Virus record (IMG/VR): IMGVR_UViG_3300009605_000161
Span: 1 to 22,682 of that record
Source of the DNA: a virus
Length of the DNA stretch: 22,682 nucleotides
Strand: one strand, 5' to 3'
Shown: piece by piece, positions 7,399 through 20,738 of the stretch
Layout of the letters: every line of letters starts with the position of its first letter
Position numbering within the stretch: the first letter of the stretch is position 1
Program-made: the position numbers and the translations under genes
The notes under the pieces: generated by a model
Told to the model about the DNA's origin: nothing
Seen by the model: only the letters and a program-made list of their open reading frames with translations
The model's database searches: none

Positions 7399-8550
7399 AT
7401 GAGTAAGAAAAAGTGGACAATTTATGGTGCTATTGCCGCAGCCGTTCTGGTTGCTGCAATTGCGACACCCGTACTTGCAGATGAGCCTTCATATGAAGAC
7501 CTCACCGCTCGTTTGGATGCCGCAGAAGCACGAATTGCAGAATTGAACAAGTCTGAACCATCAGAGATGGATATCGCCAGAGCAAATGCCACTAAGGCAC
7601 TTGTTCGTGATGTTCTTGCTGATGCAGATGCTCGTTCAATGATGCAAGGCAACGGAAGCCCTGTTACAGTAAATGTACACGGATTTGTACAATCTCGCTA
7701 CACCTATAGTGGTGGTGGTGATGACGAAGCCAATCACGGTTTCGGTCTTCCCCGCGCCCATCTTGAACTTTCTGGAGACCTCTATAATTGGGGTTATGTA
7801 GTAAGTGGACAGTGGAGCGAAGGAGGAGAGTTTGACCTTTTGGATGCTTATGCAGAAGGTGGACTCTTTGGTGGAAATGTCCGTGTAGGACAATTCAAAG
7901 CACCGTTTATGCGTGAGGTACTTGTCTATCAGGCAGATACTCTTATGACAGAGCGTTCAATCGTGTCCAACCAGTTTGGTCAGGGTCGTTCGCAAGGTGT
8001 TCAGTATAGTCGTGATTTTGGTGTGGTAGATTTTGCTGCCGCTTACACCGATGGTTTCGATACTGCCAATGGCGCAGGAGTTCAGAACGGTCAGGCATTT
8101 ACTGCCCGTGCTGGATTCGATGTTGCTGATTGGTGGAATGTGGGTGCTGCCGTTTCATATAACGATTTGGTAGACACCGACTACACCACCTACACCCTTG
8201 ATACTAATGTATCATTCGGTGGAGGTCTTGACTTGACTGCTGCCTATGTTGCAACTAGCGGTGACGCTGGAGACAATTGGGGAACAACAGTTCAAGCAGG
8301 GTATCATTGCATGGATAACCTACAAGGTTTCGTTGCATATGAGTATGGTGAATTAGAAGATGTTTCAGAGAATCTTAGCATTGCAACTGTTGGTGCCAAT
8401 TATTGGTTCAACGATAATGTCAAGTGGACAACCGAATTAGGTTATGCACTAAATGGCATTAATGGTGCTTGGGATTTGGGAGAAACAGGTTGGCGTGCTG
8501 GTGACAGTGGCGAATATGTTATTCGTACCCAACTTCAACTTACTTTCTGA
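7399..8550 (+). CDS. Outer-membrane beta-barrel porin (phosphate-selective porin O/P-like)
   Basis: Predicted secreted 383-residue porin. Residues 1-27 are a clear signal peptide (basic MSKKK, hydrophobic core, cleavage after VLA). A short coiled coil follows (DLTARLDAAEARIAELNKSE), as in trimeric porins with N-terminal coils. From about residue 90 the chain is alternating amphipathic strands starting VNVHGFVQSRYTYSGG, rich in aromatic, Gly and Asp residues. It ends in QLQLTF, with the terminal Phe expected for BAM-directed outer-membrane proteins. The pattern resembles the OprP/OprO family, but substrate cannot be read. It sits in a cassette with its own sigma70-type promoter and terminator, unlike the phage genes around it, which suggests a moron-like acquisition from a bacterium. 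Confidence 0.85.
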   Translation: MSKKKWTIYGAIAAAVLVAAIATPVLADEPSYEDLTARLDAAEARIAELNKSEPSEMDIARANATKALVRDVLADADARSMMQGNGSPVTVNVHGFVQSRYTYSGGGDDEANHGFGLPRAHLELSGDLYNWGYVVSGQWSEGGEFDLLDAYAEGGLFGGNVRVGQFKAPFMREVLVYQADTLMTERSIVSNQFGQGRSQGVQYSRDFGVVDFAAAYTDGFDTANGAGVQNGQAFTARAGFDVADWWNVGAAVSYNDLVDTDYTTYTLDTNVSFGGGLDLTAAYVATSGDAGDNWGTTVQAGYHCMDNLQGFVAYEYGELEDVSENLSIATVGANYWFNDNVKWTTELGYALNGINGAWDLGETGWRAGDSGEYVIRTQLQLTF

Positions 8551-11456: not shown

Positions 11457-12224
11457 ATGGTACTTAGGAGAACTGCATATTTCTTAGCAACTTTGTTATG
11501 TTTAGTAAGTTGCACTTCAACTCTACCTTTACCTACACCTCCCCAACAACAAAACCCAATACCAGAAGTCTTTGATCCTTTTGTTGCCACAAACAATGAA
11601 AACGATCCCTATCCTTTCGTTGGTTCTATTCATAGAGAAAATGGAAGTTTAGTAGGCGGCGGAGTTCTTATTGCACCCGATGTAGTTCTAACTGCTGGAC
11701 ATTGTATCGATAATAAAAAAATAGACTCAGTATATTTTGGAGAAATGTGTGTTCCTGTTTCCTCTACTCTTCTTCATCCTGAATATGAAATGTATGGAAG
11801 ACCTGTAAATGATATCGGCATTATTTTTCTAGAATATCCAGTAGATATTAACCCCATTTCCCTACATAATAATAGAGTATTGTGGAGATTCAGTGATATA
11901 ACAGTTATCGGATATTCGTTCGGATATAAAAAATACAGCAAGCCAAGTGTATTTCAATATTACGGAACAATACTTGAAGACATAAACGAAATAAAGTTTC
12001 TACCAAGACGGGCAACAATCTGGTTTGGTGATTCTGGCGGCGCAGTAATTGCTACACTAGAAGGAGAAGAAAGGTTAGTAGGAATAATAACATCATTCTT
12101 GACAGATGAATTTGGAATAGTCGAGTGTTCGGCTACACGAATTAAATTTTATAGAGGGTGGATTGAGGAGGTTCTAAATGAACAAGGATTGGACGGACGG
12201 GGTAGCCGAATGGGTGAACAATAA
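11457..12224 (+). CDS. Trypsin-like serine protease, predicted lipoprotein
   Basis: A 255-residue S1-family protease with a full catalytic triad: H82 in TAGHC, D119 in NDIGIIFL, and S193 in GDSGGAV. The N-terminus MVLRRTAYFLATLLCLVSCT is a lipoprotein signal with lipobox LVSC (lipidated Cys19), followed by a Pro/Gln-rich linker (LPLPTPPQQQNP). The mature enzyme should therefore be anchored in the host envelope, facing the periplasm or surface. The barrel spans about 50-235. A late promoter box lies just upstream, so it is probably made late. Possible roles are cutting host envelope proteins before lysis or blocking receptors; phage origin of such an enzyme is unusual. Confidence 0.88.
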   Translation: MVLRRTAYFLATLLCLVSCTSTLPLPTPPQQQNPIPEVFDPFVATNNENDPYPFVGSIHRENGSLVGGGVLIAPDVVLTAGHCIDNKKIDSVYFGEMCVPVSSTLLHPEYEMYGRPVNDIGIIFLEYPVDINPISLHNNRVLWRFSDITVIGYSFGYKKYSKPSVFQYYGTILEDINEIKFLPRRATIWFGDSGGAVIATLEGEERLVGIITSFLTDEFGIVECSATRIKFYRGWIEEVLNEQGLDGRGSRMGEQ

Positions 12225-12337: not shown

Positions 12338-12772
12338 ATGGAAGAAAACAATGGACACTGGAATAATTTACCTGATGACTTTAACTTTGATGATTGGTTT
12401 GGGTTTGTATACTGTATTACTCGTAAAGACACACAGAGAAAATACATCGGCAAAAAACAAACCAGTTCGTATCGCCGTAAGAAAGTCAAAGGCAGAACAA
12501 ACCGCAAAAAAGTAATTTCCGAATCTAACTGGAAAAAATATACTGGTTCTTGCGACGAACTCAATCAAGAAATAGAAGAACTTGGAAAAGATAAGTTCAC
12601 CTTCGAAGTCTTGAAACTATGCAAAACCAAAGGTGAACTTACTTTTTCAGAAGTAGAATATCAATTCAAATATGATGTTCTTACTTCTATACTAGAAAAT
12701 GGTGAGAGAGAATATTACAATTCTAATATTATGAGTCGTTGGTTCTCTTCTTCGTCTTACCTAAATTCTTAA
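12338..12772 (+). CDS. GIY-YIG family nuclease-like protein (SegE-like)
   Basis: A 144-residue protein with the paired strands of a GIY-YIG domain: GFVYCI at 22-27 and KYIGKK at 35-40. A basic stretch follows (SYRRKKVKGRTNRKK), then SNWKKYTGSCDELNQEIEEL, KFTFEVLKLC, GELTFSEVEYQF and a C-terminal IMSRWF. This matches the short SegE-type GIY-YIG proteins common in T4-like phages, which include homing endonucleases. R45/R46 and E105 or E107 are candidates for the catalytic Arg and Glu. No ribosome binding site is visible. Its last 44 bases overlap the convergent minus-strand gene. Confidence 0.8.
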   Translation: MEENNGHWNNLPDDFNFDDWFGFVYCITRKDTQRKYIGKKQTSSYRRKKVKGRTNRKKVISESNWKKYTGSCDELNQEIEELGKDKFTFEVLKLCKTKGELTFSEVEYQFKYDVLTSILENGEREYYNSNIMSRWFSSSSYLNS

Positions 12773-13685
12773 AATTATTTTTAATCTTAATCTGTGAAAC
12801 TATCTTCTTCGTCATTGGACTTTGCAATTCACTAGCAAAACCATTTCTACCAAAAATTTCTTGTCGCTCTTCGGTATCTAGATGCTCTTTCATCTCTTCT
12901 ATGAGTTCCACAATTTCTTCAATTGCTTTTTCGTATCGGCTGCCATTAACAAGCATCCAGCCAACTACTGCAATTGTTGCCACGAATCCAACAATTAAAA
13001 CAATCAACCCAACAGTAGCAATTTCTTCAAGATAGTATTGCGATGCGGCTGCAAACCCTACTGTCAATATACCTATTGCAAGTAAAACTGCACCAAGCCT
13101 ACCATTCACCCAAAAGGCAATGAAGGCACCGCCCACCAACATTCCGAACCCCATTACAAAGAATAGAGTAATATAATTATGGAGATTTTCTAGGGCTTCT
13201 CTGCGAACTTCCCTGTCGGAAGTCTCGTAGTCCGCAACTAGGTCCTCTAGTTCCTCGATCTGACCGACGGCTGCGCCAACTCTGTCGTTCGCCTGATCCA
13301 AATCTTCCAACGCTTCTTCGATCCGAACCTGTTCTAGCGCCGCATCGTCCACATGTTCCTTGATTGTTTCTGCGGAATTCTCGATGTTGTCCAGAGTTGG
13401 GTCGATGTTGTAATTGTGGTCGTCTGGAACGAGTGCTATCTCGTCTAGAATGGAATTCGCTTCCTCGTCTATGTTCTCCAGTGTCCCTGCTATCGAGTCT
13501 GTAGCGTCTGTGATTTCCTGAGTCTGCTCCGTCTGCTCTCTCACGCTGTCCACCACAGTTGAAGCGGTGTTCTCTGGAGTTCCATCGTGAGTCATCTGTT
13601 GGAGTGCTTCGCAACCCGCGCCGCTTACGAGAGTCATCAGTACGAGCATCTTCGTTAGGCGACTGGCTCTTTCTCCATTGAGCAA
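12729..13685 (-). CDS. Lipoprotein with periplasmic coiled coil and three C-terminal membrane helices (spanin-like layout)
   Basis: The open frame runs from 13766, but I place the start at TTG 13685. It has AAGGA close upstream and gives a compact signal peptide (basic n-region, then KMLVLMTLVSGAGC) with lipobox GAGC. ATG 13721 and 13649 are alternatives. After the lipidated Cys comes a long acidic coiled coil of about 140 residues, then three membrane segments (FFVMGFGMLVGGAFIAFWV; LGAVLLAIGILTVGFAAAS; IATVGLIVLIVGFVATIAVV), then a charged cytoplasmic tail. An outer-membrane lipid anchor plus coiled coil plus inner-membrane helices is the layout of a unimolecular spanin, though those have one helix. 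It is largely nested in the gene starting at 13839, and most of it uses GC-rich codons. Confidence 0.7.
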   Translation of the reverse strand: MLNGERASRLTKMLVLMTLVSGAGCEALQQMTHDGTPENTASTVVDSVREQTEQTQEITDATDSIAGTLENIDEEANSILDEIALVPDDHNYNIDPTLDNIENSAETIKEHVDDAALEQVRIEEALEDLDQANDRVGAAVGQIEELEDLVADYETSDREVRREALENLHNYITLFFVMGFGMLVGGAFIAFWVNGRLGAVLLAIGILTVGFAAASQYYLEEIATVGLIVLIVGFVATIAVVGWMLVNGSRYEKAIEEIVELIEEMKEHLDTEERQEIFGRNGFASELQSPMTKKIVSQIKIKNNFKNLGKTKKRTNDS

Positions 13686-13839
13686 ACCGTTCCTTTGCTT
13701 CTTCTGGTGAAATTTTGCCATCGGCGATTGCCGTTCTAAATCTCTGTCCAATCTTTTCTCTTTCATTATTTACCTCCGAGTCCTGTGCAACAATTGGTGT
13801 TGCTAATAATAATACTGCTAATGCAATTAGTGTTTTCAT
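13177..13839 (-). CDS. Secreted small protein; real start, uncertain C-terminus overlapping the lipoprotein gene
   Basis: ATG 13839 overlaps the upstream stop (ATGA) and has CGGAG before it, so the start is sound. Residues 1-19 are a signal peptide (MKTLIALAVLLLATPIVA, then QDSE). Residues about 22-60 look like genuine protein (EREKIGQRFRTAIADGKISPEEAKERFAQWRKSQ). After about residue 70 the chain becomes Arg/Ser/Gly-rich and lies in the +1 frame across the coding region of the lipoprotein. That part may be only a stop-free shadow in GC-rich DNA, or a real basic tail. A frameshift joining the two frames is a third option. The nested layout recalls Rz/Rz1 spanin pairs. Confidence 0.55.
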   Translation of the reverse strand: MKTLIALAVLLLATPIVAQDSEVNNEREKIGQRFRTAIADGKISPEEAKERFAQWRKSQSPNEDARTDDSRKRRGLRSTPTDDSRWNSREHRFNCGGQRERADGADSGNHRRYRLDSRDTGEHRRGSEFHSRRDSTRSRRPQLQHRPNSGQHREFRRNNQGTCGRCGARTGSDRRSVGRFGSGERQSWRSRRSDRGTRGPSCGLRDFRQGSSQRSPRKSP

Positions 13840-16169: not shown

Positions 16170-18233
16170 TTATATTTCTAACAATTCAAAGCCAAAATTG
16201 ACATCTATTGATTCCAACTGTCGTTGGGGTTTCCTTTGTTCTGATAAAGTAAATGTCTTATTCACATTCACGCTATAATTAAGTGTTTCTAAAAATCTCT
16301 TACCTATAAGAACCAAGTATGTGTTGTCATCTCGGTCGCTTAAGTTAAAGAGAACATCTTTGTATTCTTTCTTGCCAAACTTTATATCAAATTTGACTAG
16401 ATATCGTTCTTCCCATTGGTCTGAACCGATATTAATTTTTTGAGTTTGTACGATTGGTTTAGTAAACTTCTTTCCAAGAATACTAAAGGACACATTCTTG
16501 CCCTTTGCTTTTACATTATCTGAATGAATAGAATTTACTGAACCATTCCCTGTATCTACTTTGGCTTTTAATTTACCAACACCCTTGACTGTGATGTATT
16601 CTACATAACCAATTTCCTTGGAAGTAAATTTCCAATTCTCTTTGTTAAGAATATGGTCGAGAACATAACCAACCAACTCTTCGCCGCTAAGTTCTTTTCC
16701 TTCGTGGCCTGGATGATATCCCATATACGGTGCGGCGCCAGAACCTGGCGAACCATTCACCTCTAGAATATAATGTTTTCCGTTGTGTGTGATATGGTCA
16801 ACACCTGCATAGTAACAACCAGATATCTTATATGCTTTTCTAATAAGGTCTTTTTCTTCTTGGCTCAACTTGTAGGGAGCAGTGTCATTACCCAATGCTT
16901 TATTGGTTCTAAATTCTTTCCCACCAGAAGATTTGATTCTTTTTACTGAAGCACAAATCTTACCATCTAGGACAAGGGTACGGACATCGTGTTTAATCTC
17001 CATATATTCCTGAAGGATAATCTCTGCTTCGTGCTTCCACAAGGACTGTAGAACGGATTTAAGGGACTCATAGGACTCAATTTTCGAAACTCCGATACCT
17101 TCAGCACCTGTAATCGTTTTTATGATAACAGGGAACTTGCCCCCGATCTTTTCAAGAGCAATGTCAATCGAATCTTCGTTATTCACAAAGGCTGTTCGTG
17201 GAGATGAAATTTGATTTTGTTCAAGTGCAAGTGCAGTAACCATTTTGTTCTGGCAAAATTGCATAGACTCAAGACTGTTTACCATAAACATTCCAACTTC
17301 CTGTAGCGTTTTTACCATACCCGTACCAGCATTATCAAGAATAGCCCCGCCGCGAACCAACGCAACGGTGTTGTCTATTTTTAGATTAATATTCTTTCCG
17401 TCGCCGCCATAATTATGAATAGTAATTTCGTTATCTTCCATATCCTTGTCTACAATAAATGCGTGGTCAGTATGCACGGCAAAGAAAGATACACCTTTCT
17501 TTTTACATACTTTTGCCAATCTTTCAATGGTATCAGACTTCTCATTATCTGTAGAAGATTTGGTAATAGCAATAACCGTTGGAAGGCTTTTGTCTTTTGC
17601 TTCCTCTAAACTAATCAGTCTATTCCAATCTTCTTCTAGTGATTCTCGCACACCCATTGCAGTTCTCAATTTTTTGTATAGTTGTTTTGCAATTATTTTG
17701 TTTCCTACGCCCAATTCAAAACTTTCATAGTCTCCCGCAACTGCGGCCGCTCTCATCTTTGAAGCAGACATTCCTTCGACTCCTTCTGCATCGGGGTCTC
17801 TCTGTCCTGCACTTCTTACTTCAAAGTGGTCAAATTGATATCCATCTGGTCCAACATATTTTGAAATACTTTTTTCTAATTCTGCTACTCTATCACCACC
17901 AACGACAAGAATAACTTTTTTATATCCTTCATCACTTAATTTCTGCATCATATAAAACGGATTTATTACAGACCTATCGTCTATAACATTTACTTTCCTG
18001 CCAAATATCTTTCTCATAAAACTAATTTTGTCTCTGGGCTTTAAAGGGTCTCTATTGTCGCCTGCCTTTCGACTTGGGTAAATACGATGCTCTGCTCTTT
18101 CCCTTCGGGCATTGTCAACCACCGCATCAACTAGTTTTTGATGACCAATTGTAGGTGGTTGAAAGCGCCCGAAGGTTACAACGATAGCCTTCGTTTTGTC
18201 TTCGTTCAGAAAATCTCTGACCGATTTACTCAT
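16170..18233 (-). CDS. Triple fusion: nucleotidyltransferase + RimK-like ATP-grasp ligase + RimB-like aspartic protease
   Basis: A 687-residue enzyme in three parts. (1) About 15-195: HIGH-superfamily nucleotidyltransferase, with VVTFGRFQPPTIGH (TIGH 28-31) and GMSASKMRA (164-172). (2) About 215-530: RimK-type ATP-grasp amino-acid ligase, with nucleotide loop IIKTITGAEGIGV (K372), LQEYMEIKHDVRTLV, YYAGVDHI and metal residues in ILEVNGSPG (E491, N493). (3) About 545-675: RimB/DUF785-like retropepsin fold, with KAKVDTG (D560) and LIGKRFLE. RimK adds glutamates to a protein C-terminus (ribosomal S6 in E. coli) and RimB acts with it; here both sit in one chain. The N-terminus MSKSVRDFLNEDK resembles a T4 capsid-targeting peptide. 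ATGA overlap with the upstream small gene. Substrates unknown. Confidence 0.87.
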   Translation of the reverse strand: MSKSVRDFLNEDKTKAIVVTFGRFQPPTIGHQKLVDAVVDNARRERAEHRIYPSRKAGDNRDPLKPRDKISFMRKIFGRKVNVIDDRSVINPFYMMQKLSDEGYKKVILVVGGDRVAELEKSISKYVGPDGYQFDHFEVRSAGQRDPDAEGVEGMSASKMRAAAVAGDYESFELGVGNKIIAKQLYKKLRTAMGVRESLEEDWNRLISLEEAKDKSLPTVIAITKSSTDNEKSDTIERLAKVCKKKGVSFFAVHTDHAFIVDKDMEDNEITIHNYGGDGKNINLKIDNTVALVRGGAILDNAGTGMVKTLQEVGMFMVNSLESMQFCQNKMVTALALEQNQISSPRTAFVNNEDSIDIALEKIGGKFPVIIKTITGAEGIGVSKIESYESLKSVLQSLWKHEAEIILQEYMEIKHDVRTLVLDGKICASVKRIKSSGGKEFRTNKALGNDTAPYKLSQEEKDLIRKAYKISGCYYAGVDHITHNGKHYILEVNGSPGSGAAPYMGYHPGHEGKELSGEELVGYVLDHILNKENWKFTSKEIGYVEYITVKGVGKLKAKVDTGNGSVNSIHSDNVKAKGKNVSFSILGKKFTKPIVQTQKINIGSDQWEERYLVKFDIKFGKKEYKDVLFNLSDRDDNTYLVLIGKRFLETLNYSVNVNKTFTLSEQRKPQRQLESIDVNFGFELLEI

Positions 18234-18361: not shown

Positions 18362-19516
18362 TTAAACTGTTTTTAATTGCTGTAACCTTTTCTCTGGTAT
18401 ATTTAGACCAGATATTATGGTATACAACCTTAAACTATCTTTTCCATCCTCATAAATACCCCGATGCAGAGTTGCATTTGGACATAACGAAGATAGCGTA
18501 TCGAATCCATACGATAAACTATCCATTAATCCTGGCGTATTTTCCATAATATCCTTACCGCCAATTGCCACACAGGCGGCAACACTAGAGTCTGAAAGTT
18601 CTACATCAGTAAGAAGTGTCTTTTCAAGATTTGTCTTGATTGCACTTGATACCTTTTGTTCGTCATCAAACTCTTTTAATTTCGCTACACCCATAACCAT
18701 TACGCCACCACACCGCAAGACGCTGGAATAGTCTGTTGGGTCAAATGATGTATATGGTGATGGGTTGTTTGTGAGTACATTGAATACATGGAATAGACCA
18801 GAGATGGTATTATTAACTGTTGGCCAGAATTGTTTAACCGTTAATCCTTTATACATTCTTTCAATCTTGGAATTGTCAAGAATGATAAGAGGAGAAATGG
18901 TTTTTTCTTTTGCACATCCACCAACAACGCTCAACACTTCATGTGCATTTTTTGACACTACTGGTGAATTTGCTTCGCCTCTGGTTGGCAAAGACATAAC
19001 TACTCCAACTCGTTTTTCTGGATCGTCGTGCCCAATATACTTCATATATTTCTTGGCAGTTTCAATTAAAACGAGGACTGAACCACTTCCGCTGCCACCA
19101 CCAGCACCGACACAGACAAAAAGATGATCGACATTACTACCATAGACTCTTCGCATAAGATCGAATACATTTTGTTTATATTTGTTTGCCGCTTCATTGC
19201 CTTTATCCATATCCTTTCCTGCACCCTGTTCACCCACATCAAATAACATTTTTTGTTCGGCAGGCAATTCAAGAGTATCTAAATCGTGACGAGAAGTATT
19301 TACTGCAATACATTTTTTATATCCTCGTTCATAAAATGCTTTTGCAATTCTGCCACCACCTTGCCCAGAACCAATCCAAGCGAAGGTTTGAGAACCACCA
19401 GATTCGTCTTCTACCGCAGTTTCTTCATCTTCTGGAATTTCATAATCTTCCAAATCAATGTCTGGTATTTCTAAATCTGGAATTTCTGGAATTTGATTTT
19501 CTAATTCTTCGCTCAT
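18362..19516 (-). CDS. FtsZ/tubulin-superfamily GTPase
   Basis: A 384-residue filament-forming GTPase candidate. Residues 1-42 are an acidic tail of repeated EIPD-like units (EIPDLEIPDIDLEDYEIPED). The GTPase begins at about 45 (FAWIGSGQGGGRIAKAF). The tubulin signature is GAGGGSGSGS at 137-146. The T7 loop that completes the neighbour's active site reads FDPTD at 258-262 with both aspartates (D259, D262), so hydrolysis should work. Jumbo phages use the tubulin PhuZ to position DNA and capsids; this protein is not obviously that family and looks at least as close to FtsZ. AAGGA precedes the start. It lies between the ligase-like gene and the triple fusion. Confidence 0.85.
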   Translation of the reverse strand: MSEELENQIPEIPDLEIPDIDLEDYEIPEDEETAVEDESGGSQTFAWIGSGQGGGRIAKAFYERGYKKCIAVNTSRHDLDTLELPAEQKMLFDVGEQGAGKDMDKGNEAANKYKQNVFDLMRRVYGSNVDHLFVCVGAGGGSGSGSVLVLIETAKKYMKYIGHDDPEKRVGVVMSLPTRGEANSPVVSKNAHEVLSVVGGCAKEKTISPLIILDNSKIERMYKGLTVKQFWPTVNNTISGLFHVFNVLTNNPSPYTSFDPTDYSSVLRCGGVMVMGVAKLKEFDDEQKVSSAIKTNLEKTLLTDVELSDSSVAACVAIGGKDIMENTPGLMDSLSYGFDTLSSLCPNATLHRGIYEDGKDSLRLYTIISGLNIPEKRLQQLKTV

Positions 19517-19529
19517 TTATTTTTCCTTT

Positions 19530-20738
19530 TTATTTGTTCCAATTCTTAGGAACAGTAAAGTTTGCTTTACTAAATTCTAATCTATCTACTAATTTTAATA
19601 CTGTGTTACTTACTCTATCCACAGCAACAAAACCTTCTGGTGAAGTTACTCTAAATCCGTCAGCCGTCCTGATAAAAGTTCCTATTTCTTTTACCTGTTC
19701 AAGTTTCCGAATAATAAATACCTTCGCTTCCGCCAAGGCGGCGTGCAACGCAAAAATAGAATCCAGTTTTGTAGAATTCTTGCTTAAATATGCAAGTAAA
19801 TCTTTTTTGATTGTTTCTTTTCGCTCCTTTGCACTATCCGTCTTTAGCGTATCTATGGCTGCCTGCATTTTTGAGTCAATATAATTAATGAACCCAGCCG
19901 CAGAACCAACCTCTCCATCTCCCTGACGGATAAGGGCATTACCATAGATTTTTACCTCTGAAATAATCATAGGCTTACCACGCAGTGTATCAAGATATCT
20001 TTTTACACCGCCTGCTTGTCTCTTAATTTTTGCAATCAAAGAATTAATTGTGGACGATTCTGTACTTGTAAATGTTGCTGTACCCGAAGTGTCTCGAAAA
20101 TCGGCATCCTGAAACCAGACATCCCTAGTCTTTGCGAGAGAACCAACTCTAGGGTTGAAGGATGCTTTTAATCCTTTAATTGTCTTTCCTGTATATTTTG
20201 TGTGCCATACTACTCCTATCTTTGCATTAGTAATTGATTTCGCTGTATCTGAACCAGCGGGTACTGCATAGGTAATCGTATTCGGGGTAAAAGTAAGATA
20301 ATTCTCTCCGTCGATTTTTGTCGATGATGTATCATCTGTAAACATAATATCGCCTTGAAGAATTCCTCTAATACCCAATTTACCAAGGTACTTTAAAGCA
20401 ACTTTTAACTTGCTTGCTAATACAGCGGCGTGTCCGTGATTTTTGTCGATATCTGCATTCGTATAGTTGACTTTTGGGGTAACATTAAAAAGAGATTTTG
20501 TTGCCACAAAAAACTTTTTGGTTTCGGGGTGTATTCCTGCAAACACCGCAGGTGCGCCATCCCATTTAACGGTAACATTTACTCCTGATGATGCATTTCC
20601 ATGAAGCATTTCAGCCACTGATTCTAAAAAAGATATGGCTGTAGCAACACCTGAAGAACCTTCGTTCCACACAGTATCTTCAAGATGTTCCATATGAACA
20701 TTCTTCGATTCAGCAATAAACGTAGTAAATACCTTCAT
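19530..20738 (-). CDS. Ligase-like covalent nucleotidyltransferase candidate; conserved marine T4-like phage protein
   Basis: A 402-residue protein that I recognise as a conserved marine T4-like phage family without known function. In it I see motifs of the RNA/DNA ligase superfamily: KWDG at 58-61 (motif I, lysine nucleotidylation site) followed by APAVFAG; RGILQGDIMF at 124-133 (motif III-like); EGFVAV at 368-373 (motif IV-like); and LKLVDR at 381-386 (motif V-like). Their order is right, but the spacing between III and IV is long, with a helical insert near 285-355. The N-terminus MKVFTTFIAESK resembles the T4 internal-protein capsid-targeting peptide (MKTYQEFIAEA). First gene of the minus-strand operon. 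The ligase reading needs structure prediction. Confidence 0.68.
   Translation of the reverse strand: MKVFTTFIAESKNVHMEHLEDTVWNEGSSGVATAISFLESVAEMLHGNASSGVNVTVKWDGAPAVFAGIHPETKKFFVATKSLFNVTPKVNYTNADIDKNHGHAAVLASKLKVALKYLGKLGIRGILQGDIMFTDDTSSTKIDGENYLTFTPNTITYAVPAGSDTAKSITNAKIGVVWHTKYTGKTIKGLKASFNPRVGSLAKTRDVWFQDADFRDTSGTATFTSTESSTINSLIAKIKRQAGGVKRYLDTLRGKPMIISEVKIYGNALIRQGDGEVGSAAGFINYIDSKMQAAIDTLKTDSAKERKETIKKDLLAYLSKNSTKLDSIFALHAALAEAKVFIIRKLEQVKEIGTFIRTADGFRVTSPEGFVAVDRVSNTVLKLVDRLEFSKANFTVPKNWNK

Follow-up and report, generated by a model that had tools for sequence, protein, structure and literature searches.

DUF6267, a phage protein family without assigned function, probably belongs to the covalent (lysyl-NMP) nucleotidyltransferase superfamily as a branch not recognised before, and would act there as a polynucleotide ligase. 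Based on predicted structures and residue conservation, we place the probability of this reading at about 0.6, with DNA nick sealing during phage replication and RNA ligation about equally likely. Its parts differ in strength. Membership of the superfamily by predicted fold is highly probable, and a putative active site of the conserved lysyl-NMP type, together with the superfamily fold, is well supported. Polynucleotide ligase activity is a prediction, with the balance tipped in its favor by the closest fold matches and by the setting among replication genes.

The DUF6267 gene and its family

The window analyzed here is the whole of the viral IMG/VR record IMGVR_UViG_3300009605_000161 (22,682 bases). 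By family assignment, it also encodes a RecA-type (UvsX-like) protein, a DnaB-like helicase, ThyX, and ribonucleotide reductase. The DUF6267 gene is a single frame of 402 codons at positions 19530–20738 on the minus strand, and the plus strand of this region is rich in stops. The predicted protein of 402 residues matches Pfam PF19782 (DUF6267) over the entire model (1–376 of 376) with an E value of 2.8e-113 and 379.5 bits against a cut-off of 27, and the full-length protein also matches PHROG 455. In annotated cyanophages, the homologues are labeled T4-GC71. Of 50,697 phage records, 466 contain relatives; these are nearly all cyanophages, together with phages of Pelagibacter, Methylophilales, Vibrio, and Stenotrophomonas. 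Both DUF6267 and PHROG 455 lack an assigned function; the earlier note on this DNA, which was made from the letters alone, had described a conserved marine phage protein without known function. A full-text literature search, which mostly covers papers outside subscription journals, returned no published description of a DUF6267, PF19782, or phrog_455 protein, and the available excerpts of the wider literature on cyanophage ligases, nucleotidyltransferases, and T4-GC71 contain none either. Relative to the Pfam, PHROG, and T4-GC71 families, the fold and motif reading given here is new.

The family also includes a natural short form of approximately 298 residues (S-RIM2 type), for which 80 loci were retained from 199 relatives. 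One further relative (L142, 1139–2779) has a frame of 547 codons with approximately 130 additional residues before the DUF6267 domain, a possible N-terminal fusion.

Predicted fold of the long and short forms

To compare the protein with known structures, we used two AlphaFold2 models. The long form was modeled from alignment A2, which holds 119 sequences, including that of the window, from IMG/VR and genome contigs at 33–71% identity to the window protein; this model has a pLDDT of 89.8 and a pTM of 0.86. The short form was modeled from alignment A3, in which it is the first row, with a pLDDT of 93.0 and a pTM of 0.88. A2 and A3 have many long-form rows in common, so the two models are separate and not fully independent.

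Structural comparison with VIA-align placed RNA/DNA ligases in 45 of the best 50 rows for the long model, the other five being mostly helical proteins, and in all 50 of the best 50 rows for the short model. These rows are redundant, and a single enzyme, the Naegleria RNA ligase, occupies 13 of them in each list. The same enzyme is the top match, with a Z score of 8.9, an rmsd of 3.6–3.7, and 175–181 aligned residues. A Z of 8–9 is modest alone and lies near the best value often reached by models without a clear match. Foldseek returned nothing at E ≤ 0.001 for either model. For the long form, its best match (E 0.73) is an unrelated protein and the Naegleria RNA ligase ranks third (0.91); for the short form, the four best matches are all ligases (E 0.09–0.23), led by a tRNA ligase at 0.09. 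A search of BFVD ranked members of the family itself first, followed by a phage protein labeled 'RNA ligase' (E 0.012).

The ligase alignments cover residues 12–396 of the long model and flank, on both sides, a helical insert formed by residues 225–347 (19698–20066, minus strand), which comprises five helices in the long model and is reduced in the short form. The earlier note had placed such an insert between motifs III and IV, where the long model contains it. Based on the model, K58 closes the strand 53–58, D130 lies within the strand 126–133, E368 stands just before the strand 369–374, and K382 lies in the strand 380–383; the predicted strands that bear these four residues follow the ligase order. 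Ahead of motif I, there are just 57 residues, mostly one helix, and most alignments begin at ligase residue 143. After motif V, the model contains one short helix (386–395) and no C-terminal OB domain.

Could such matches arise by chance, the motifs being look-alikes and the fold merely a common alpha/beta arrangement? The Z scores, barely above those commonly seen for models that lack a clear match, and the borderline motif scan described below are what this explanation has in its favor. It is nevertheless the least probable one considered here, given the uniform ligase lists obtained for two separate models and the invariance of the motif residues. Collectively, these observations support the proposal of the earlier note that the protein is a ligase-like covalent nucleotidyltransferase: two confident models rank RNA/DNA ligases first, an unrelated fold did not emerge from the prediction, and the proposed catalytic residues are invariant.

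Conserved motifs and the putative active site

The four motifs that had been noticed by eye, KWDG, GDIMF, EGFVAV, and LKLVDR, are present in this order at residues 58–61, 129–133, 368–373, and 381–386 of the minus-strand frame. In a single sequence, such motifs are suggestive; conservation and fold carry the case. Across A2, 23 of the 402 positions are strictly invariant (K58, D60, G61, P63, G68, P71, F76, F77, K81, F84, Q128, D130, N153, Y157, H179, T180, Y182, N267, G361, E368, G369, V371, and K382). Eight of the 21 residues named in the earlier note fall among them (hypergeometric P 4e-6).

Motif I (K58-W-D60-G61; 20556–20567, minus strand, as are all motif positions below) aligns in hhalign with the motif I KxDG of Rnl5-type ligases, and its K58, D60, and G61 are invariant in all 119 aligned rows and all 24 short forms. 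The motif III-like segment Q128-G-D130-I-M-F (20340–20357) forms the strand 126–133 and aligns with the LQGE/QGE of Rnl5; Q128 and D130 are invariant in 119 of 119 rows. The carboxylate is thus fixed, but as Asp, where the superfamily usually has Glu. Motif IV (E368-G-F-V-A-V; 19620–19637) aligns with the EGYVAV of T4 Rnl1, with E368, G369, and V371 invariant in 119/119 rows. In motif V (L-K382-L-V-D-R386; 19581–19598), K382 is likewise invariant in every one of the 119 rows. In the short forms, Q128, D130, E368, G369, V371, and K382 are also kept in 24 of 24, as are the three motif I residues, while position 129 is Ala in place of Gly in 23 of 24.

Three further segments may correspond to superfamily positions. 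K81 (20496–20498), which is basic and invariant, follows directly on the third strand after motif I and probably occupies a motif Ia-like position. The strand 174–183 (20190–20219), with W/F178 and the invariant H179-T180-x-Y182, appears to take a motif IIIa-like place. H18 (20685–20687) is invariant in the 118 of 118 rows that have the residue; tentatively, it sits where the Naegleria ligase has R149, provided that the VIA alignment begins without a gap.

Based on this arrangement, K58 would form a lysyl-NMP by attacking the α-phosphate of a nucleotide cofactor (ATP, possibly NAD+ or GTP), and D130, E368, and K382 would hold this intermediate. The NMP would then move onto a nucleic-acid 5' end, and the strand break would be sealed. 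DUF6267 would act as a polynucleotide ligase within the phage replication/repair module, and the helical insert may stand in for the missing OB/C-terminal domain as a clamp for the substrate or a partner.

The Asp in place of Glu in motif III, and the failure of sequence profiles to detect similarity to active ligases, would also fit a ligase fold reused without catalysis as a binding or structural protein. When catalysis is lost, such active-site residues are normally freed to vary. Here, none of nine putative active-site residues varies among the 119 sequences, down to 33–37% identity, and all but neighbors of the G129 type are kept in the short forms as well, which makes a noncatalytic role very improbable, if marginally less so than chance resemblance.

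We also scanned for the motif blocks in their fixed order, as taken from Naegleria-type RNA ligases; the score of the window protein was also reached by 2 of 464 decoy ORFs from phages and by 11 of 1000 shuffled sequences. The scan located just motifs I and IV at the expected place and is weak evidence because motifs III and V were misplaced.

Sequence-profile searches

No ligase match to DUF6267 was obtained in Pfam, PHROGs, NCBIfam, or the PDB sequences with phmmer and profile searches. A Pfam scan of all 119 members gave no ligase in the best 25 of 118 families; the window protein has no match to PF01068 at E ≤ 1 and no Pfam match to PF09511. With hhalign, DUF6267 showed no significant similarity to the profiles of Rnl5, Rnl2, small RNA ligases, Rnl1, or gp30, the best P being 0.034 (Rnl1) and those for Rnl5-type profiles lying between 0.046 and 0.085; one of eight unrelated decoy families reached P 0.024. 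When the register was left unconstrained, motifs I and III fell onto Rnl5-type ligases and motifs IV–V onto T4 Rnl1 (P 0.085, 0.46, and 0.034). Known superfamily pairs also fail in the same set-up (Rnl1–gp30, P 0.43; Rnl2–gp30, 0.35; Rnl2–Rnl1, 0.37), and mutual detection is confined to Rnl5, Rnl2, and the small RNA ligases (P 5e-8 to 1.5e-6). Therefore, these negative results do not exclude DUF6267 from the superfamily. Since the profiles are not significant and Foldseek alone does not reach its threshold, the case for a ligase fold is built on the structural comparisons and the invariant motifs.

Comparison with known ligases

The Naegleria gruberi RNA ligase, together with the Deinococcus-type Rnl5, is the best fold match (Z 8.2–8.9, rmsd 3.6–4.0, 172–185 aligned residues). 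Its motif letters, VTVKLDGSS, LQGEI, REGLV, and SFKAIS, correspond to VTVKWDGAP, LQGDI, PEGFV, and VLKLVD in DUF6267. Moreover, the motif IV Glu and the motif V Lys are 14 residues apart in both proteins (E312–K326 in Naegleria, E368–K382 in DUF6267), and motif V has a single Lys in Naegleria/Rnl5 and DUF6267 alike. In contrast, identity is only 10–13%, and DUF6267 differs in the Asp of motif III, the insert 225–347, and, tentatively, the His at the place of R149. The Rnl5 family has an N-terminal OB domain before the nucleotidyltransferase domain; DUF6267 lacks it and, for this reason, was not filed in that family.

T4 Rnl1 matches the short form with a Z of 8.3 and an rmsd of 3.5 over 154 aligned residues, and hhalign aligns EGFVAV with EGYVAV as well as the motif V Lys. 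However, the similarity in sequence is not significant (P 0.034), and the Rnl1 family PF09511 occurs in T4 only, one of the 21 records tested. The T4 DNA ligase gp30 and other ATP-dependent DNA ligases (PF01068) share the predicted superfamily fold (Z 5–6) and the replication-module setting. Such DNA ligases use an OB-fold domain. DUF6267 differs from them in having no OB domain, a weaker fold match, and no PF01068 match. Collectively, on the evidence of the models, DUF6267 is set apart within the superfamily by the Asp in motif III, the five-helix insert, the absent OB domain, and profiles that do not join those of the superfamily.

DNA and RNA ligases in the carrier phages

T4-like cyanophages share the replisome of T4. 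A 2010 review (PMC2984593) states, however, that homologues of the g30 DNA ligase were not found in cyanomyoviruses; distant homologues were either still unidentified or absent, and absence was judged more probable, with the host ligase able to substitute. A comparison of 26 genomes (PMC3037559) expected such functions to be present as divergent copies among the shared hypothetical proteins. DUF6267 is a shared hypothetical protein of this kind and, with its predicted ligase fold, a concrete candidate for the cyanophage ligase.

We searched 21 phage records for DUF6267 and for known ligases. DUF6267 is present in 20, T4 being the sole record without it. Eight of the carriers are cyanophages chosen by accession and not by match (P-SSM2, P-SSM4, Syn9, S-SM1, S-RSM4, P-HM1, S-SSM7, and Syn1), all eight of which have the gene; the other 12 were reached via matches. 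Of the T4-like cyanophages among the records, all 12, including the eight chosen by accession, carry DUF6267, and a recognisable DNA ligase of the PF01068 or PF01653 type is absent from every one of them. The NAD+ ligase PF01653 was found in 0 of 21 records. A PF01068 ligase occurs in two of 21 named carriers (20 phages, S-PM2 being included twice), namely DLP6 and the freshwater phage S-CRM01, and in one of 18 carriers from IMG/VR, which are mostly fragments (contig G001); one more has a piece below the threshold (E 0.031). PF09414 matched two of 10 records, T4 and G001, and the match in G001 overlaps its own PF01068 ligase.

Because a PF01068 ligase accompanies DUF6267 in DLP6, S-CRM01, and G001, strict complementarity between DUF6267 and gp30 fails, and we rejected a simple replacement of gp30. 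The host LigA could also serve the DUF6267 phages. For these two reasons, DUF6267 as the 'missing ligase' of cyanophages is put forward here as a hypothesis.

The same three carriers show that a separate DNA ligase and DUF6267 can coexist with two jobs, which would suit an RNA-repair ligase that, like T4 Rnl1, mends tRNA or other RNA after cleavage by host antiphage nucleases and is unrelated to DNA replication. This is a special case of the polynucleotide ligase reading, set against DNA nick sealing. The best structural neighbors, which are RNA ligases (Naegleria Rnl, T4 Rnl1, REL1, T4 Rnl2, and Trl1), also point this way. On the other hand, no polynucleotide kinase is annotated beside DUF6267 in the regions examined, the gene is located in a replication gene cluster, and its near-universal presence in cyanophages is unlike that of a sporadic counter-defense gene. 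We consider a dedicated RNA-repair role unlikely, although it is the strongest of the competing explanations. If the polynucleotide ligase reading is true, a family known from 466 phage records would gain a function, and a ligase of new architecture could come from it.

Gene neighborhood and the HIGH-motif enzyme

The neighborhood survey covered 195 DUF6267 loci, of which 106 had enough flank downstream and 97 upstream. Of the 106 eligible loci, 81 have a HIGH-motif enzyme on the same strand within 3.5 kb downstream; on the upstream side, the gp41 helicase lies within 4 kb in 51 of 97 and UvsX in 34 of 97. The order in annotated cyanophages is gp41, MazG, DUF6267, and 'cytidyltransferase', with small genes interspersed. 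In S-PM2, DUF6267 and the HIGH enzyme form one gene of 591 codons, which is split in an older record of this phage. P-SSM2 has T4-GC71 without an adjoining HIGH gene, and no HIGH gene is annotated within 3 kb of DUF6267 in S-CRM01. In the window, the HIGH-motif nucleotidyltransferase domain, NMNAT-like by profile, occupies 17589–18233 (minus strand) of a downstream ORF of 687 residues. From gene order and the S-PM2 fusion, the HIGH enzyme is predicted to be a functional partner of DUF6267. Its family matches models of NMN adenylyltransferase more frequently than those of other specific enzymes; 35 of the 40 members match one of the NadR type at E values no higher than 0.1 (the best being 6.5e-8), the match being below the cut-off for the member displayed.

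The whole 687-residue protein (16170–18233, minus strand) combines the HIGH nucleotidyltransferase with a RimK-like ATP-grasp ligase and a RimB/RloA-like retropepsin domain; the RimK part is found downstream of DUF6267 in 14 of 106 related loci. The enzyme named 'cytidyltransferase' in cyanophages (T4-GC190), represented by the window domain and the 39 relatives aligned with it (alignment A4), resembles NMN adenylyltransferase models more than cytidylyltransferase models.

That this constant neighbor is a HIGH enzyme and not a polynucleotide kinase is a point against a ligase, as are the Asp in motif III and the missing OB-fold domain. DUF6267 might instead be a covalent nucleotidyltransferase that works with the HIGH enzyme and whose NMP acceptor is a protein, a small molecule, or, in a capping-like reaction, a nucleic-acid 5' end. 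The frequency of the HIGH gene downstream, the S-PM2 fusion, the matches of 35 of 40 members to NMN adenylyltransferase models (below the cut-off in the member displayed), and the absence of a recognisable nucleic-acid-binding domain in DUF6267 all fit this alternative. Capping enzymes appear lower in the Foldseek lists (8p4c and 1p16 for the short form, 4cke for the long form) at E 0.7 or worse; they are absent among the 50 VIA-align rows listed per model, which is not evidence against capping. Against a nonligase role, however, the best 50 VIA-align rows of the short form are all ligases. We regard such a role as unlikely, slightly more so than RNA repair.

Under the preferred reading as a polynucleotide ligase, the NMNAT-like partner hints, speculatively, at NAD+ as the cofactor. 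In its most specific version, DUF6267 would be the replicative DNA ligase of T4-like marine phages, in which no gp30 is recognisable, and would be driven by NAD+, and the linked or fused HIGH enzyme would recycle the released NMN to NAD+. This version is improbable as a whole, more so than the two competing enzymatic roles. If true, it would add a third DNA ligase architecture, in which a helical insert replaces the OB domain, and would do so in viruses that are among the most abundant in the ocean.

The suggestion in the earlier note that the protein may be delivered with the DNA found no support. The S-SM1 virion proteome detected T4-GC190 (PMC3037559), a neighbor of DUF6267, and the DUF6267 gene, T4-GC71, is separate from it in S-SM1. 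As the available part of that paper names T4-GC190 and not T4-GC71, we rejected virion delivery for lack of evidence.

Other features of the loci and the window

A variable protein (phrog_13937, phrog_1462, or no family) is encoded directly upstream of DUF6267 in four loci (L412, 2072–2998; L204, 6523–7977; L202, 7079–7996; L414, 1661–2998), and in three of the four its ORF overlaps the start of DUF6267 by a shared base. This upstream ORF, which often overlaps DUF6267 by a few bases, was dropped as a functional clue because it matches no family with a named function. A Tubulin/FtsZ-like gene (18362–19516, minus strand; Pfam Tubulin 5e-11, TubZ-like_C 6.5e-6) adjoins the DUF6267 gene in the window and is downstream of it in just two of 106 eligible related loci.

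Elsewhere in the window, a protein of 383 residues (7399–8550, plus strand) with a signal-peptide-like start and no Pfam match resembles an outer-membrane porin by eye. Two long frames (13177–13839 and 12729–13766) on the minus strand together span 12729–13839 and overlap each other; likely, only one of them is coding over the overlap, or a frame change occurs. Additionally, a trypsin-like serine protease gene (Pfam Trypsin, 5.4e-12) is located at 11457–12224 on the plus strand.
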